Assembly: GCF_004364345.1 (NCBI RefSeq)
Contig: NZ_SOCA01000002.1
Coordinates: 323,711 to 387,710 of the forward strand
Reading direction: 5' to 3'
Origin: Prosthecobacter fusiformis
Lineage (GTDB): Bacteria > Verrucomicrobiota > Verrucomicrobiia > Verrucomicrobiales > Verrucomicrobiaceae
DNA length: 64,000 bases
Position numbers and translations under genes: made by a program. The notes under the pieces are model-generated. The model searched no databases. It had not been told where the DNA came from and saw nothing but the letters and a program-made list of their open reading frames with translations. Shown here in pieces: positions 50,430-57,199 of the stretch; positions within the stretch are counted from its first letter, which is position 1; each line of letters starts with the position of its first letter.

Positions 50430-52442
50430 TCACCAGCCACTGCGCACGTTCCACTTCTCCATGAGTTCCATGGGCACTTCAGTGATGAAGCGGCTGGGTT
50501 TCATGAGGATGTCTCCGTCGCGGGCTTGGTGGTTGATGAGCGGATAGGTCAGATAGAGCTCATCCTTGGCTCGCGTGACGGTGACGTAGAAAAGGCGGCG
50601 CTCCTCCTCCAGACCTGCGTCGCTTTCCTCAATGGCGCGTGCATGGGGGAACATGCCATCCGCCATCCAGACGGCAAAGACGGTGTGCCACTCTAGACCT
50701 TTGGCCTGATGGGCGGTTGTCAGTGTGACGGCATCCCGGTCCTGGGCCTGCTGGTCGGGCTTGTTGTCCGTATCCACGCCACTGAGGAGGGAGAGCTGGC
50801 TGAGGAATTCCAAAGGATCAGTGAATCGGACACTGTAGTTGCTGAGCTGCTCCAGGTCCTGCTGGCGCTGCTCGGCGTTTTTAAATTTGGACTTCATGTA
50901 CTCTTCGTACACACCGTCATAAATGCTGCGGATCATCTCCGGCGGGGTGGCTACCTTTCCATCCACAATGAGTTCATCCAGGGTATAGGCGAACTGGTCC
51001 CAGGTTTCCCGGGCTTTCTTCGGCACGGACATGGGGATGAGCAGATCGGAAAATTTGCCAGTCATCACCTCGGACTGGGAGGCTTCGGTTTTAAGCCACT
51101 CATTCCAGACCTTGGTGGCACTGGCACCGCCGATGCCGGGAATGAGCTTCACCATGCGCATGAAGCTGACTTCATCCCGCCTGTTGACGGCAAATTTCAT
51201 GAAGGCGGCCACGTCTTTCACATGCGCTTGCTCAAAGAAACGCAGACCGCTGGTGATCTGGAATGGGATGCCGCGATTGGTCAGCTCCATCTGGATTTCC
51301 ATGCTGTGGAAATGGGCGCGGTAGAGCACGGCGATTTCATTTAACTCAACGCCTTCATCTTGAAGTTCGAGGATGCGCTGGGCGATGAATGAGGCCTGAG
51401 CGCTGCCATTGTCCAAGGGCACCAGGGCAGGAAGCTGACCCTTCAGTGGACGTGCAGGCAGCAGGTTCTTGCGGATCTGAGCGCGATTGTTGGCAATGGA
51501 GGCATTGGCCAGTTCAAGCACTTCAGGGACACTTCGATAATTGACCTCAATTTTATGCACGGTGGCCCGGGGCCAGTAATCGTGGAATTCCAGGATGTTT
51601 TTGACATCCGCACCGCGCCAGGAATAAATGGACTGCGCGTCATCCCCGACGACCATCAGATTGCCATCACGGCCGGTGAGCATTTCGATGAATTGGCACT
51701 GCAGGCTGTTGGTATCCTGATACTCATCCACCAGGACGAATTCAAACTGGCTGCGGTAACGCTCCTGGAGATCCTCGTTTTCTTTGAGCAGTCGCAGGGA
51801 TTGGCTGAGCAGGTCGTCGAAATCCATGCAGTTGGTTTCGACCTTCTTGTCCTGATAAAGCTTGCGGATGCGGATGATCTGATCGGCAATCTTTTCGAAA
51901 TAAGGATAGCGGGTCAGGATGATCTCCTCCAGCCGCATGCAGGTATTGTCCGCCATGGAGAAGATATCTCCGATCACTTCGGCCTTGGGGAAGCGAAAGC
52001 CTGCTGTGTCGATGCCACTGCTGCTGATGACGGTTTCCATGAGGTCCTTCTGATCCTCGCGATCCATGATGGAGAAGCCTTTTCGGTAGCCGAGGCGTTC
52101 AGCATTCCAGCGCAGCAGCTTGTTGCCGATGCTGTGAAAGGTACCGCTCCAGAGCCGTTGTGTATCGAGGGGGACGAGGGAGGTCACCCGCTCCAGCATT
52201 TCCCGTGCGGCTTTGTTGGTGAAGGTGAGCAGCAGGATCTGGTCTGGCAGCACACCATTGTCCAGGAGCCAGGCTACACGATAGGTCAGAGTGCGTGTTT
52301 TCCCTGAGCCAGCCCCTGCGATGACGAGCGTCTGTCCCGGTGGGGCCGTCACGGCAGCATACTGCTGCTCATTGAGCTCCGCTTTGTAGTCTATGCGGGG
52401 GGCTGCATGGGCGGCGGTGTGCAGGGTGTATTCGCGAGGCAT
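50430..52442 (-). CDS. UvrD/Rep-family ATP-dependent DNA helicase
   Basis: ATG 52442 gives 670 residues (a TTG at 52487 is rejected). The SF1A motifs are complete: Q motif LNEQQYAAV, Walker A GAGSGKT (43-49), Walker B VDEYQDTN, motif III GDDAQSIYSWRGAD, motif V TTAHQAKGLEWHTVF, and motif VI VTVTRAKDELYL. Length fits Rep/PcrA/UvrD 3'-5' helicases, which act in replication-fork restart and repair. The C-terminus is short and lacks the UvrD C-terminal extension, so Rep or PcrA is as likely as UvrD. It is divergent from the DUF58 gene. Confidence 0.95.
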   Translation of the reverse strand: MPREYTLHTAAHAAPRIDYKAELNEQQYAAVTAPPGQTLVIAGAGSGKTRTLTYRVAWLLDNGVLPDQILLLTFTNKAAREMLERVTSLVPLDTQRLWSGTFHSIGNKLLRWNAERLGYRKGFSIMDREDQKDLMETVISSSGIDTAGFRFPKAEVIGDIFSMADNTCMRLEEIILTRYPYFEKIADQIIRIRKLYQDKKVETNCMDFDDLLSQSLRLLKENEDLQERYRSQFEFVLVDEYQDTNSLQCQFIEMLTGRDGNLMVVGDDAQSIYSWRGADVKNILEFHDYWPRATVHKIEVNYRSVPEVLELANASIANNRAQIRKNLLPARPLKGQLPALVPLDNGSAQASFIAQRILELQDEGVELNEIAVLYRAHFHSMEIQMELTNRGIPFQITSGLRFFEQAHVKDVAAFMKFAVNRRDEVSFMRMVKLIPGIGGASATKVWNEWLKTEASQSEVMTGKFSDLLIPMSVPKKARETWDQFAYTLDELIVDGKVATPPEMIRSIYDGVYEEYMKSKFKNAEQRQQDLEQLSNYSVRFTDPLEFLSQLSLLSGVDTDNKPDQQAQDRDAVTLTTAHQAKGLEWHTVFAVWMADGMFPHARAIEESDAGLEEERRLFYVTVTRAKDELYLTYPLINHQARDGDILMKPSRFITEVPMELMEKWNVRSGW

Positions 52443-52624
52443 GGGAAAGGGAACGTGCTCAGTGCTCAGGCGGCTGCTTGGAGTCAACAGGGAAGTTTAA
52501 GGTCGCTTTTGCCCGGCATGCTGGATTTCCGGGGCGCTCCCTCTCCTCCAAACGTAAATGCTTGTGTTCAGGCCGGTCCCGATGGATAAAAGGGCTGTCC
52601 TGTGGACGTTTACTCCGCCCCCTC

Positions 52625-53539
52625 ATGCCTTCCGAAACACTCGCCCGCGATGACCTTTTCGATGCGGCCTTTCTGGACCGGTTGCGCTCTTTGGCCGTTC
52701 GGCTGCGCAAACGCAGGTCCCTGATGCGGCGGGGCTCCCAATCCTCTCCGGCGACGGGCTTTACGCGTGAGTTCAAGGACTATCGCCATTACACCCCGCG
52801 CGAGGACTACCGGGCCATCGACTGGCGGCTGTACGCACGTCTGGATAAGCTTTTTGTTAGGCTGTATGAGGAGACCCAGGAGCTGAATCTCCACATCCTG
52901 GTGGATACCAGCGGCTCCATGGCGGAGCCTCATGGTGAAAAGCGCCGTCAGGCCTTGCGCTTTGCGGTGGCGCTAGCCTATCTGGGACTGGCAGGGCAGC
53001 AGCGGGTGAGCCTGTATTCGCTCAATGAAACCGTGCATCAGGAACTGCCGCCGTTGCGAGGGCAGGGGAACATCGAAAAGATCATTCAGGCTGCCACGCG
53101 TCTGCAATATGGAGGATTTACCGATCTGGAACGTGGCTTCACGGATTTCCATCCCACCCGCCAGCGTTACGGGGTGATCTTTGTCATTTCGGACTTCTTT
53201 GGCCGGGATGTGAATACAGCCGCAGAAGCGGTGAAGCGTGCCGCTGCGTGGCCTGGCGAGTGCCATTTTGTTCAGATCCTGCACCCTGAAGAAAGGCAGC
53301 CCTCCCTGGAGGGGGAGGTCGAGCTGGCTGAAGTGGAAACAGGCGAAAAGCGCCGTTTTTGGCTGACCCGCCGTGATGTCCAACGTTACGTGGACAGCTT
53401 TGACGCCTTTTGTGAAAACCTGGCCCGGGAGTGCGCGGCCCATCGAATTGACTTCATGCAATGCGGTGCCGAAGAACCGTTTGAGGATCGCTTCCTCGAT
53501 CTTTTGAACCGAGGCACCGCCCTGGCGGGAGGGGTGTGA
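52625..53539 (+). CDS. DUF58 domain protein
   Basis: ATG 52625 gives 304 residues. An in-frame extension from 52478 contains Cys-rich, Arg-rich sequence without support. The DUF58 hallmark REFKDYRHYTPREDYRAID (49-67) is followed by a VWA-like part with LVDTSGSM (92-99). DUF58 proteins are usually encoded between a MoxR AAA ATPase and BatA/BatB VWA proteins and may assemble or activate periplasmic complexes. Here no moxR gene precedes it, and parDE separates it from the BatA-like gene at 54180. Confidence 0.9.
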   Translation: MPSETLARDDLFDAAFLDRLRSLAVRLRKRRSLMRRGSQSSPATGFTREFKDYRHYTPREDYRAIDWRLYARLDKLFVRLYEETQELNLHILVDTSGSMAEPHGEKRRQALRFAVALAYLGLAGQQRVSLYSLNETVHQELPPLRGQGNIEKIIQAATRLQYGGFTDLERGFTDFHPTRQRYGVIFVISDFFGRDVNTAAEAVKRAAAWPGECHFVQILHPEERQPSLEGEVELAEVETGEKRRFWLTRRDVQRYVDSFDAFCENLARECAAHRIDFMQCGAEEPFEDRFLDLLNRGTALAGGV

Positions 53540-53541
53540 GA

Positions 53542-53570
53542 TTGACCCATAGACGATCCATTGTTATAAT
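53542..53570 (+). promoter_or_regulatory. Near-consensus sigma-70 promoter for parDE
   Basis: TTGACC (53542-53547), exact 17-nt spacer, perfect TATAAT (53565-53570). The A of the parD ATG (53577) lies 7 nt past the -10 box, the usual start position, so the transcript would be leaderless. It is the best promoter in the window. Confidence 0.85.
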
Positions 53571-53576
53571 TCTTCT

Positions 53577-53879
53577 ATGTCACAGCTAGCGATTTCATTG
53601 CCGGACGATCTACAGTCGTTTGTCTCGGAGGCTGTGCGCTCCGGGCGCTTTACTGATGAAGGGGACTTTGTGGTCAATGTGTTGTACCAGGCCATGGAGC
53701 AGGCACCTTTGAATGAAGCCACACTGGATTCTCAGGGACTGCAAAAGCTGGAAGCGTTGAGAAACGACATTCGGGTGGGACTGGACCAGTTGGACCGTGG
53801 CGAAGGCATTTCTGATTTTGACTGGGATGCCTTCATTCAGGGAATGCATAAAAACCCTGTAGCAGCTAAATCTGACTAA
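53577..53879 (+). CDS. parD: ParD-like antitoxin
   Basis: The 100-residue protein opens with a ribbon-helix-helix domain (LAISLPDDLQSFVSEAVRSG, about 4-45), the DNA-binding part of ParD/CopG-type antitoxins. The C-terminal half (about 50-100) has charged helices that would wrap the toxin. It probably neutralises ParE and represses its own promoter. The ATG is exactly where transcription is predicted to start, with no ribosome site. It lies 5 nt before parE and inside the DUF58/BatA gene group. Confidence 0.85.
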   Translation: MSQLAISLPDDLQSFVSEAVRSGRFTDEGDFVVNVLYQAMEQAPLNEATLDSQGLQKLEALRNDIRVGLDQLDRGEGISDFDWDAFIQGMHKNPVAAKSD

Positions 53880-53884
53880 GCTGT

Positions 53885-54175
53885 ATGGCGGAGATTATTT
53901 ATGCGCCAGTTGCTTTGGAGGATTTGCGAGATGTTTGGATCTACATTGCCGATGACAGTGTGCGGCAGGCTGATCTTTTTATGTTCAAGCTTCGGGATAG
54001 GATTGCCCATTTGGCCAGTCACAACGGCATGGGCAGATCCAGACCTGAACTTGCACCGGCTCTCCGTAGCTCTCCCTTTGGCAAATACATCATTTTCCAC
54101 CGTCAGATTGACGGCGGAATCGAAGTTGTACGCATTATCCATTCTTCACGGGATTTGAATCGGATACAATTCTAA
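53885..54175 (+). CDS. parE: ParE-like toxin
   Basis: The 96-residue protein has the RelE/ParE fold signatures: YAPVALEDLRDVWIYIADDS near the start, LFMFKLRDRIAHLA in the middle, and RSSPFGKYIIFHRQI with VVRIIHSSRDLNRI at the end. ParE toxins typically inhibit DNA gyrase; the exact target here is not shown. It starts 5 nt after parD and ends 4 nt before the BatA-like gene, so it may be co-transcribed with that gene. Confidence 0.88.
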   Translation: MAEIIYAPVALEDLRDVWIYIADDSVRQADLFMFKLRDRIAHLASHNGMGRSRPELAPALRSSPFGKYIIFHRQIDGGIEVVRIIHSSRDLNRIQF

Positions 54176-54179
54176 CCAG

Positions 54180-56024
54180 ATGCATTTCCTCACCCCCCAT
54201 TTCCTGCATCTGGCTTGGTTGGCGCTCATTCCGCTGACGCTTTACCTGTTCAGGAAAAAGGCGAGGCGGGTGCCGGTTTCCACGCTGCTTTTCTTCCGGT
54301 CCCTGTCACGTGAGCATCGGGAGTCAGCCTGGCTGCGCAGGTTGAAAAAATGGCTGTCTTTGCTCATGACGCTCTTGGTCATTCTGTTCGCTGTGCTCGC
54401 CTTGGGACGCCCCGTGGGAGATGAGGGCAAGGATTCCCCAGGGGCAGTGATTGTGGTGGTGGATCGTTCAGCCTCCATGTCGGCCAGCGATGAAACGGGT
54501 CGCACGCGGGTGGAAGAGGCCCGGCGGGTTTTGCGTGATCGCCTCAATCGCCTGCCTGATCAGGTGGTGGTATCTTTGGTCGCTTATGATGCGAAGGCGC
54601 AGGTATTGCTTTCTCGAAATCGTAACCGGCGTGAATGCCTACGCCTTCTGGATGAAATCCTGCCACTGCCGATGGAGGGGAGGCCGGATGCTGCCTTGAC
54701 CGTCGTGCGGCGTCTGGCGGAACTGGAAACGAAGACCCAGGTCTGGCATGCGGGGGATACTCCTTGGGTAGATCAAGAAGGACTGACTTATGAATTCATC
54801 AGCGTGGCTCTGCCTAACCTGTCGAATGTCGGCATCACGGGTTTTCGCATCCGTCCGGCACCCTTGGCCAGAGACCGATATGAAGGATTTGTGCAGGTGA
54901 GTGCGGCCGCTGCGAATCCCGGCAAAGTGACGGCCACTCTCGAAATCACTTTGGGCGGCAGGCTGGCTCAGTTGCGTGAGTTGGAGCTTGAGCCAGGTAA
55001 ATCCAGTGCGCTGATTTTACCTATGGAGGGAGTGCGTGGACAGCGTGCAGAGATCCGTCTCAAGGCTGCCGGAGATTGCCTGAACTGGGACAATGCTGTG
55101 GCTGCGCCGCTGCCAGATGCACGTCCGCTGGTGGTGGCCTGGGTGGCGGATAAACCGGACCCGTTTACTGAACTGGCCATGACTTCCATGATCGAAGCGG
55201 GCCGTATCGAAATGCTGAAAGGCACGCCAGCCGCCTGGCCAATGAAGGACAAACCTGACGTCTATGTCTTTGAGCAATGGCTGCCCCCTGAATGGCCCGC
55301 AGACCGGCCTGTCATCGCGCTGAATCCTGTGCGATCCTCCGGCCCCGTCCAAATGAAACCGCTCCAGGGCGCTGGACTGCCGCATGACAGTATCCGCAGT
55401 GTGGCGCCCGATCATCCCGTGCTGTTTCGTGTTTCGGCCAGCCGCTTGGCCATGACTCAGACCAGCGTTCTGGCTTTGGGGAATTCGTTTGAGCCGTTAT
55501 GGATGGCGGGAACGGAGCCTGTTTTAGCCGCAGGAGAAGCCAATGGACAGAGGGTGGTGGTGAGTGCTTTTTCACCGGCGAAGTCGGAACAACTGGCATT
55601 GCTACCTGCGTTTCCTCTCATGCTGGGCAATGCACTTTACTGGTGTGCTGAAAACAATGAGGCCACCGCCGGACTGAAAGTGCAGCATCCCGGGGATCTC
55701 TTGGAGGAAACGGGATTGCTTCAGTGGACGGAGTGGAACGGTACACAATTCGTGGAAGCCTCCGAAGCTGTGCCCACAGGGCTGCTGGCCATCCAGCGCA
55801 TCGGTGCCTGGCAAACGGCCGAGGGCAGGTCCGGGGCGAGTATTCTGGGTTCAGCGATGGAAACGGATGTGCCTGCAAAAGCAGCCACGGGAGTGCCTGC
55901 GAGTGCATTGCCACGGATTGCCAGTTCCAGCGGAATTGGCAACTGGCCGCAATTGCTCATCTGGAGCCTGCTTGGCGTGCTGCTTTTAGAAAGCTTCCTT
56001 TTCCATCGCAAGGCGGTTTTTTGA
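54180..56024 (+). CDS. BatA-like protein with N-terminal membrane segments and VWA-like domain
   Basis: The 614-residue protein starts with a BatA-type N-terminus: TM at about 7-24, then RRVPVSTLLFFRSL, and TM at about 58-77. A VWA-like domain begins IVVVDRSASMSA (91-102). The MIDAS Ser-x-Ser is kept, but the rest of the domain is shortened or diverged. A long β-rich extension (about 215-570) and a third TM at the C-terminal end (about 590-608) follow. It should be an inner-membrane protein working with DUF58 and possibly a MoxR encoded elsewhere. parE ends 4 nt upstream. Confidence 0.85.
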   Translation: MHFLTPHFLHLAWLALIPLTLYLFRKKARRVPVSTLLFFRSLSREHRESAWLRRLKKWLSLLMTLLVILFAVLALGRPVGDEGKDSPGAVIVVVDRSASMSASDETGRTRVEEARRVLRDRLNRLPDQVVVSLVAYDAKAQVLLSRNRNRRECLRLLDEILPLPMEGRPDAALTVVRRLAELETKTQVWHAGDTPWVDQEGLTYEFISVALPNLSNVGITGFRIRPAPLARDRYEGFVQVSAAAANPGKVTATLEITLGGRLAQLRELELEPGKSSALILPMEGVRGQRAEIRLKAAGDCLNWDNAVAAPLPDARPLVVAWVADKPDPFTELAMTSMIEAGRIEMLKGTPAAWPMKDKPDVYVFEQWLPPEWPADRPVIALNPVRSSGPVQMKPLQGAGLPHDSIRSVAPDHPVLFRVSASRLAMTQTSVLALGNSFEPLWMAGTEPVLAAGEANGQRVVVSAFSPAKSEQLALLPAFPLMLGNALYWCAENNEATAGLKVQHPGDLLEETGLLQWTEWNGTQFVEASEAVPTGLLAIQRIGAWQTAEGRSGASILGSAMETDVPAKAATGVPASALPRIASSSGIGNWPQLLIWSLLGVLLLESFLFHRKAVF

Positions 56025-56036
56025 CCGCCATGCGAT
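56005..56036. terminator. Long hairpin between convergent genes
   Basis: ATCGCA-A-GGCGGT (56005-56017) pairs with ACCGCC-A-TGCGAT (56024-56036) in two 6-bp blocks with one A-A mismatch. It overlaps the stop codon of the BatA-like gene. There is no T-run on either side, so a bidirectional transcription barrier or an mRNA-end stabiliser is possible. Confidence 0.5.
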
Positions 56037-56047
56037 AGGAATCAAAA

Positions 56048-57199
56048 TCAGATCACCGGACCCTGCACGCTGTCCCACTTCTGATGCCACTCCCGATAAA
56101 CGATGGGGCTGATCTCGCTAGGCTTGATCTCGCTGCGACCACCCCAGAAAACGTTGGTGTATTCCACCGGCATGCCGATGGAGGCCAGGTGGTCATCAAT
56201 GGCCGCCTTGTGCTTCATGATGAGGTCTTTGTCGGTGCCATGCACCACGCCCATGATGTTCACATTGCCAAAGCGGGGGCCGCCTTCGCGCCAGTAACAG
56301 TGGGTCATGATGGTGTGGCGGCCGACTTCTGAACCACCACGCTCCTGCATGCCGTCTGGCACTTTCCAATGGAAGAGGCCGTTGAAACGGGTCACACGCA
56401 CACCGGTCTGGCTGGGCTTCACATGTTCCAGGAAGGTGGAAAAGCGGCCAATAACGCCTTTTTTGTCCAGTTTTTTGGCGACTTCGCAGAAACGCTCTAG
56501 CGTGGTGCCTGCGGCTTCGGCGCGTCCTGCCCAGGGTTCTGGGCCGATTTCTTCCACGGAAAGCTCACCCTTCAGATGCAGCAGGACATTCCATTCCTCC
56601 TCGTCCAGATCGGCGATGTTGGTGGTCATCATCTTGGCAGGCTCGTCAGCCTTTTCTCCTGGCTCCATGGTCTTGCGACGGACATGGCCGACGCCGAGGG
56701 CGAAGATGCCGTGGGCAGGCATGAGCAGGTATTCCTCAGCCCCGGTTAGGCGCTTCAACACATCCGCATGTTCTCGCATGTCGATACCCTGCGGGACTTT
56801 GAGGGTGGTCCACAGCTTGTATTCACTGCCGCTGACTTCACGATCCGTGGATCGGAGCACGACGTGGCCGCTGAAGGGATCCTCTTTGAACATGAAGTCA
56901 AAGGCGGCATCCAGCTTGTCATTCGGCACCTTCCAAGCCACAAGTGCGCCTTCGGCCAGCTTGTTGGCCAGCAGGGTCTGGCGCACACGGCGGATGACTC
57001 CGCCGCTCACCATGGCGCGAATGCGCTCAACGACGGTATCAAAAGGAAGGCCGCTTTCTTCAGCGATGAATTGGAAAGGATGCTGATGGAATCCCTTCAC
57101 GCGGTCCTCGCTGACCGCTAGAATACGGGCATTGGTTTCTTCGGTGTGTTCGATGGGGAGAGTGTCGGCGGTCATGTGAAGGAAAGGATCAGATAGCAT
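56048..57199 (-). CDS. Tandem AhbA/AhbB-like (siroheme decarboxylase family, Lrp/AsnC type) fusion
   Basis: The 383-residue protein contains two similar halves, each with a winged-helix-like N-terminal part and an AsnC-type ligand domain. The first half has FIAEESGLPFDTVVERIRAM then GVIRRVRQTL; the second has VSVEEIGPE-like sequence then GVIGRFSTFL. This order and the two repeats match AhbA and AhbB (NirDL-like) siroheme decarboxylases, usually separate subunits in anaerobic haem or d1-haem synthesis. It could be an enzyme or a regulator. No haem genes are adjacent. ATG 57175 is an alternative start. Confidence 0.7.
   Translation of the reverse strand: MLSDPFLHMTADTLPIEHTEETNARILAVSEDRVKGFHQHPFQFIAEESGLPFDTVVERIRAMVSGGVIRRVRQTLLANKLAEGALVAWKVPNDKLDAAFDFMFKEDPFSGHVVLRSTDREVSGSEYKLWTTLKVPQGIDMREHADVLKRLTGAEEYLLMPAHGIFALGVGHVRRKTMEPGEKADEPAKMMTTNIADLDEEEWNVLLHLKGELSVEEIGPEPWAGRAEAAGTTLERFCEVAKKLDKKGVIGRFSTFLEHVKPSQTGVRVTRFNGLFHWKVPDGMQERGGSEVGRHTIMTHCYWREGGPRFGNVNIMGVVHGTDKDLIMKHKAAIDDHLASIGMPVEYTNVFWGGRSEIKPSEISPIVYREWHQKWDSVQGPVI

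Follow-up and report, generated by a model that had tools for sequence, protein, structure and literature searches.

The window is a stretch of 64,000 nt (64 kb) from Prosthecobacter fusiformis, placed on an 886-kb contig of a genome of 5.83 Mb that is 99.9% complete. It includes a putative toxin-antitoxin (TA) module, parDE, located between a DUF58 gene and a BatA-like gene; the origin of this arrangement and its possible effect on BatA are considered here. G000 refers to the genome of the window, other G codes to relatives and L codes to loci; the genus sample includes 48 genomes. All four genes are on the + strand. The DUF58 gene (52625..53539) encodes a protein of 304 aa with a VWA fold (PF01882, E 2.3e-29; VWA_2, E 1e-8) and is the left neighbour of a stretch interpreted below as inserted (53540..54179), which includes a sigma-70-like promoter, parD and parE. 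The promoter, TTGACC-N17-TATAAT with TG before the -10 hexamer, lies at 53542..53570. The parD-like antitoxin gene (53577..53879; 100 aa) is followed by the parE toxin gene (53885..54175; 96 aa), then by the gene of the BatA-like VWA protein (54180..56024; 614 aa; N-terminus PF07584, E 2.6e-10; VWA_2, E 2.2e-9). Spacings are 37 nt from DUF58 to parD, 5 nt from parD to parE and 4 nt from the parE stop to the BatA start. The positions of the open reading frames (ORFs) and the family matches confirm the order and the 4-nt spacing given in the preliminary description made from the letters of the sequence. The translations of the two VWA-matching proteins, DUF58 and BatA, include DTSGS and DRSAS, which we take to be metal-binding motifs.

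ParE is a standard member of its family (PF05016, E 3.1e-15; PDB ParE chains 6x0a, E 8.4e-18, 8c24 and 3kxe, the last two being ParE1). ParD matches TIGR02606 weakly (24.8 bits; cut-off 46.2) and no Pfam family in a Pfam scan; relatives of it adjoin ParE elsewhere in the genus. The pair shares with the ParDE modules of known structure (6x0a, 8c24, 3kxe) the antitoxin-first order, the ParE_toxin domain and a promoter before parD. It differs from them in its location in a BAT cluster and in an antitoxin that is only weakly matched by family models. Judged by its family, the pair probably acts as an ordinary, addictive type II module with a toxic ParE. No recent plasmid donor was seen: ParE homologs in 124 plasmid records are all below 60% identity. 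PADLOC gave no match.

The insertion of parDE at the DUF58/BatA junction, proposed in the preliminary description, is well supported by the comparison of related loci, since two relatives (G034, G019) have the same flanks without parDE and further junctions are empty. In both relatives the order is UvrD, DUF58, BatA, AhbAB, MFS, as in the window, and DUF58 and BatA are 13 nt apart. The left flank is a divergent gene of a UvrD-type helicase (50430..52487, - strand; PF00580, E 8e-79). The right flank is a convergent gene of a siroheme-decarboxylase-like protein, AhbAB (56048..57199, - strand; NF040707/NF040708, below cut-off), which is also found in G018 and G064. DUF58 of the window is 96% identical to that of G034 and 98% to that of G019 (orthologs across G064, G034 and G019, 96-98%); BatA is 81% identical to that of G019, 83% to that of G034 and 86% to that of G064. 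Four further members of the genus (G018, G009, G059, G062) have DUF58 directly before BatA, at 3-20 nt. In the outgroup, DUF58 directly precedes BatA without parDE in five of six loci, with wider gaps (up to about 60 nt). Relatives thus do not all carry parDE in this order.

The insert is shared with one other genome, G064. Its ParD (103 aa) is intact and 67% identical over 100 codons; its parE is broken, having lost about 41 internal codons and the frame, and the two remaining pieces are 73 and 82% identical. A four-gene tree groups G000 and G064 (UFBoot 79), so a single insertion in their common ancestor is the most likely course, with moderate support. That level of support leaves the branching open, which gives some room to an ancestral parDE lost in the relatives. 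Such a history is nevertheless very improbable: it requires repeated clean loss down to junctions of 3-20 nt in six members of the genus, plus five outgroup loci. An artefact of assembly or binning can practically be dismissed, given the length of the contig, the completeness of the genome and the fact that another genome, G064, shows this junction too.

The preliminary description also stated that no moxR is found upstream, and this holds: the next gene upstream of DUF58 is that of the divergent helicase, and tblastn of the whole 64 kb with MoxR of the genus found no moxR in the window. The locus resembles MoxR-DUF58-BatA (Bat, aerotolerance) clusters in that DUF58 is followed, in one direction, by a protein with a BatA N-terminus and a VWA domain; it differs in the lack of moxR and in the presence of parDE between the two genes. 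MoxR directly precedes DUF58 in G059 and G062 and lies at least 2 kb upstream in G009 and in four outgroup loci. It is absent from the compared stretches of G034, G019, G018 and G064. Because the stretches of the first three lack moxR and also lack parDE, the absence of moxR is a change separate from the parDE insertion, and apparently an older one.

In a consensus scan of both strands, the promoter before parD is the only site in the 64 kb that matches at 11 or more of 12 positions. G064 retains both hexamers with a different spacer (16 nt), and no promoter site of at least 9/12 was found by the same scan in the empty junctions of G034, G019 and G018. A promoter belonging to the toxin pair, as proposed earlier, is therefore borne out, at the level of sequence only. 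A distance of 6 nt separates it from the start of parD, whose mRNA may therefore lack a leader. Five terminator-like matches were found in 52400-56150 (mean of shuffled sequences, 4.3), none of them between the parD and BatA starts. With a gap of 4 nt from parE to BatA and no such match on the way, transcription from the parD promoter is likely to read through into BatA. A separate promoter for BatA at 54170-54180 was also sought: a lone TACAAT at the parE end was rejected, the scan giving no site of at least 9/12 there. Given the common strand, the 4-nt gap and the lack of terminator-like matches between parD and BatA, it is plausible that BatA is driven from the parD promoter and is tied to antitoxin autoregulation as the preliminary description suggested; read-through from DUF58 may reach BatA beside it.

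Two further candidate features were rejected. An inverted repeat surrounds the parD -10 hexamer; G064 does not preserve it, and it is not proposed as an operator. AGGAG precedes BatA in G034, G019 and G018, and not in the window; it is also absent in G009, G059 and G062, and the loss of a Shine-Dalgarno sequence was not retained as an argument.

These data bear on a regulatory exaptation, in which the parD promoter and the ParD repressor would be kept for the control of BatA. The uniqueness of the 11/12 site is in its favour, as is the state of G064, which retains parD and both hexamers despite its broken parE. The two parE pieces of G064 are still 73 and 82% identical, however, so the loss of the toxin may be recent, and no conserved operator was identified. 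The ratio of non-synonymous to synonymous substitution rates (dN/dS) of parD in G064, 0.13, is rough because dS (1.46) is near saturation, and selection on this gene was set aside for that reason. Exaptation is accordingly rather doubtful.

A second BAT operon of the genus, reached through related ParDE pairs, comprises MoxR, DUF58_p, BatA_p and VWA (the suffix p designates the proteins of this operon). No close BatA_p was found in the genome of the window. BatA_p is found, whole or partial, in 23 members of the genus, and its 5′ side is covered in 22; that of G017, whose contig begins within the gene, is not counted among them. The comparison of further loci did not include L200. DUF58_p lies upstream of BatA_p in 18 of the 22 loci (about 2 kb away in G001; G068 and G059 included), and the slot between them is filled in 17 of the 18, being empty in G059. 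The 22 slots were scanned on both strands by tblastn with TA queries and by Pfam on 131 slot ORFs of at least 55 aa; both scans agree on the same eight TA loci (8/22; 7/18 where DUF58_p lies upstream). Three types of modules were found before BatA_p: ParDE in G033 and G016, the latter without DUF58 upstream of BatA_p; a PIN_3 toxin preceded by a small partner in G028, G001, G026 and G057; and a reversed Gp49/HTH (HigBA-like) pair in G031 and G013. The PIN_3 pair of G026 adjoins DUF58, and another ORF precedes BatA there; in G013 the frame of the toxin is interrupted. A short ParD-like match in the G013 slot was discarded as a chance match of 19 residues.

With the TA queries, no TA module was found at the 34 outgroup junctions (loci in which DUF58 was found), which include 20 with a 4-nt overlap, nine of 6-60 nt and five wider ones; ORFs at these junctions include a Uma2-like one in G044 and others without Pfam match in G076 and G097. 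The same queries gave no match at the next junction of the operon, BatA|VWA, in 18 loci. Fisher tests give p 0.0002 for 8/22 versus 0/34, p 0.005 for 8/22 versus 0/18 and p 0.008 for 7/18 versus 0/18; these values are rough, related genomes being treated as independent. In the BatA_p tree the two ParDE cases are found in separate, well supported clades, hence at least two ParDE arrivals at BatA_p, plus one at the locus of the window, seem to have occurred. The number of TA gains is estimated at five or six in all, a count that recombination could distort.

The filling of the slot by unrelated cargo is also what would be expected if parDE were a mere hitch-hiker: the junction would be a permissive site in a conserved, expressed cluster, and the module would be kept by addiction with no effect on BatA. 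The same has been argued for mazEF and yafNO of Escherichia coli in sections of a review (PMC7167474), and the broken toxin of G064 and the interrupted frame of G013 agree with it. Less easily explained in this way are a near-consensus promoter with conserved hexamers, on the strand of BatA and with no terminator-like site before it, and the same orientation of the module in G000, G064, G033 and G016. Hitch-hiking without effect is a serious possibility, held at somewhat less than even chances.

Other inserts were observed in the second operon. Small ORFs without Pfam match fill DUF58|BatA slots (L141, 958-1500; L144, L148, L143), many of them ending in an overlap with the BatA start codon. 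A gene of the GxxExxY/PDDEXK_3 type is found between BatA_p and VWA in 6 of 18 loci: G033 (L107, 10119-10550), G004, G028, G031, G016 and G057; BatA_p and the next VWA gene touch or overlap in several other genomes. In G033 MoxR and DUF58_p are separated by a gene of a four-helix-bundle protein (TIGR02436; L107, 5771-6232); inserts are therefore not confined to a single junction of the operon. G013 and G031 have a palindrome, GTATCA...TGATAC, in the interval from the reversed HigBA-like pair to BatA (L145, about 1460-1500; slot of L146); it may be an operator of the antitoxin next to the start of BatA.

Duplicated ends of the target genes accompany some inserts. In G033 and G016 the start of BatA_p is copied upstream of parD (28 and up to 90 nt), and parE overlaps by 4 nt with a complete BatA_p downstream. 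In 7 of the 22 loci the BatA 5′ end is copied, in each case from its first base. Four of the copies (G033, G016, G031, G057) precede a TA module and are clearly above shuffled sequences; that of G013 is marginal (score 30; best of 30 shuffles, 28); those of G002 and G029 are without a TA module. Copies of the DUF58 3′ end are found in G028, G002 and G011. The slot of G011 (L155, 484-633) includes a second DUF58 3′-end copy, apparently in a duplicated segment.

Outside BAT, a 162-bp repeat starting at the parE end flanks the ParDE of G022 on both sides; direct repeats thus surround 3 of 22 ParDE loci (G033, G016, G022; the locus of the window is counted among the 22), compared with 7 of 1000 random intervals at score 20. 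Direct repeats of 22-117 bp (score at least 20) surround 6 of 40 PIN_3 loci versus 7 of 1000 random intervals (p 3e-6). They flank both sides of the gene at variable distances. For the PIN_3 set, 40 of 121 matches were used, starting from the head of the list and skipping five; the four before BatA_p are not among them. In one of the six repeat-bearing loci, L260, the PIN match contains a stop. The control is made of random stretches of loci L039-L081, not of matched accessory genes. In individual loci, duplication and TA insertion are clearly linked; as a wider pattern the link is suggestive and only in part significant.

Taken together, the comparisons make the following course probable: a promoter-parD-parE unit was inserted co-directionally in the ancestor of G000 and G064 and now probably contributes to BatA transcription, as one case of an uptake of genes at this kind of junction across the genus. 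A self-contained unit entered the DUF58|BatA junction in the direction of both genes, most likely in that common ancestor, and probably behaves as an ordinary addictive type II module, as expected from its family. Its promoter would then contribute to the transcription of BatA, beside read-through from DUF58. More generally, DUF58|BatA junctions of the genus tend to acquire small cargo genes, including TA modules. Several cargoes of the second operon are located behind a duplicated BatA 5′ end, BatA itself having stayed whole; the duplications may reflect the mechanism of insertion, and the insert of the window may have come in the same way.

Several observations tell against this course or restrict it. 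The grouping of G000 and G064 is only moderate: support falls to 69 with BatA alone, and the two flank genes alone fail to recover it. The TA pair is reversed in G013 and G031, so driving BatA is not a general feature of these modules. Cargo other than TA fills the slot more often, and also follows the stubs of BatA in G002 and G029. At a score of 25, repeats are found in 2 of 40 PIN_3 loci versus 7 of 1000 (p 0.04), and they surround 1 of 19 ParDE loci outside BAT (p 0.14). A search for repeats gave no flanking duplication or BatA stub at the junction of the window or of G064; target duplication at the window junction was rejected.

A broader proposal would be that TA modules of the genus move as bare promoter-antitoxin-toxin units by long, variable target duplication, with DUF58|BatA as a preferred dock, the duplicated BatA 5′ end preserving the cluster and BatA coming under or beside TA control. 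As a whole it is speculative and unlikely. According to part of an article that cites Nobusato 2000 and Furuta 2010 on the subject, restriction-modification genes are able to integrate with a target duplication that is long and variable, of the order of 100 bp (PMC3874152). As in those cases, an addictive module is accompanied here by direct duplications whose length varies; the differences are that ParDE, PIN_3 and HigBA-like pairs are concerned here, and that the insert of the window has no duplication.

The excerpts of the 2020 review already mentioned describe TA modules within operons of E. coli (mazEF in relA-mazG, yafNO in dinB-yafP, ccd in folA-apaH), hold that these operons work without their modules and present the mechanism of TA movement and integration as unelucidated (PMC7167474). 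The cases covered by those excerpts resemble the present ones: type II modules lie between operon genes and are absent in many strains, and other cargo is also taken, e.g. parDE in relA-mazG of Salmonella. They differ in that a BAT cluster is concerned here, that a single genus has TA modules of three families at one type of junction, and that target ends are duplicated beside some inserts. Searches of a set of open-access papers on TA modules with MoxR/DUF58, in Prosthecobacter, in operons, and with target duplication or flanking repeats gave no title describing such docking. The case of the window is a fresh instance of the known insertion of TA modules in operons; the new element is the repeated docking at BAT junctions, together with duplications beside TA modules. 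With TA modules of three families at equivalent junctions, duplicated target ends beside some of them and near relatives whose sites are empty, the genus provides a testable footprint of integration. Natural pairs of loci with and without a TA module before BatA allow one to ask whether such modules rewire host genes.

The view that DUF58 and BatA genes are normally neighbours, from which the preliminary description started, is correct for the outgroup (five of six loci) and fails in much of the genus, where the two genes are often not adjacent. Of 34 genus stretches, 4 have a DUF58 match accompanying BatA, as do 3 of 12 additional loci of the genus; some of the stretches are short or partial. 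The orthologs of the DUF58 and BatA of the window are apart or on separate contigs in many members, so the pair was split once early or several times in the genus. In G016 a second copy of BatA (L049, 6752-8591, G016:C2) is matched as two separate pieces and is possibly a decaying duplicate.

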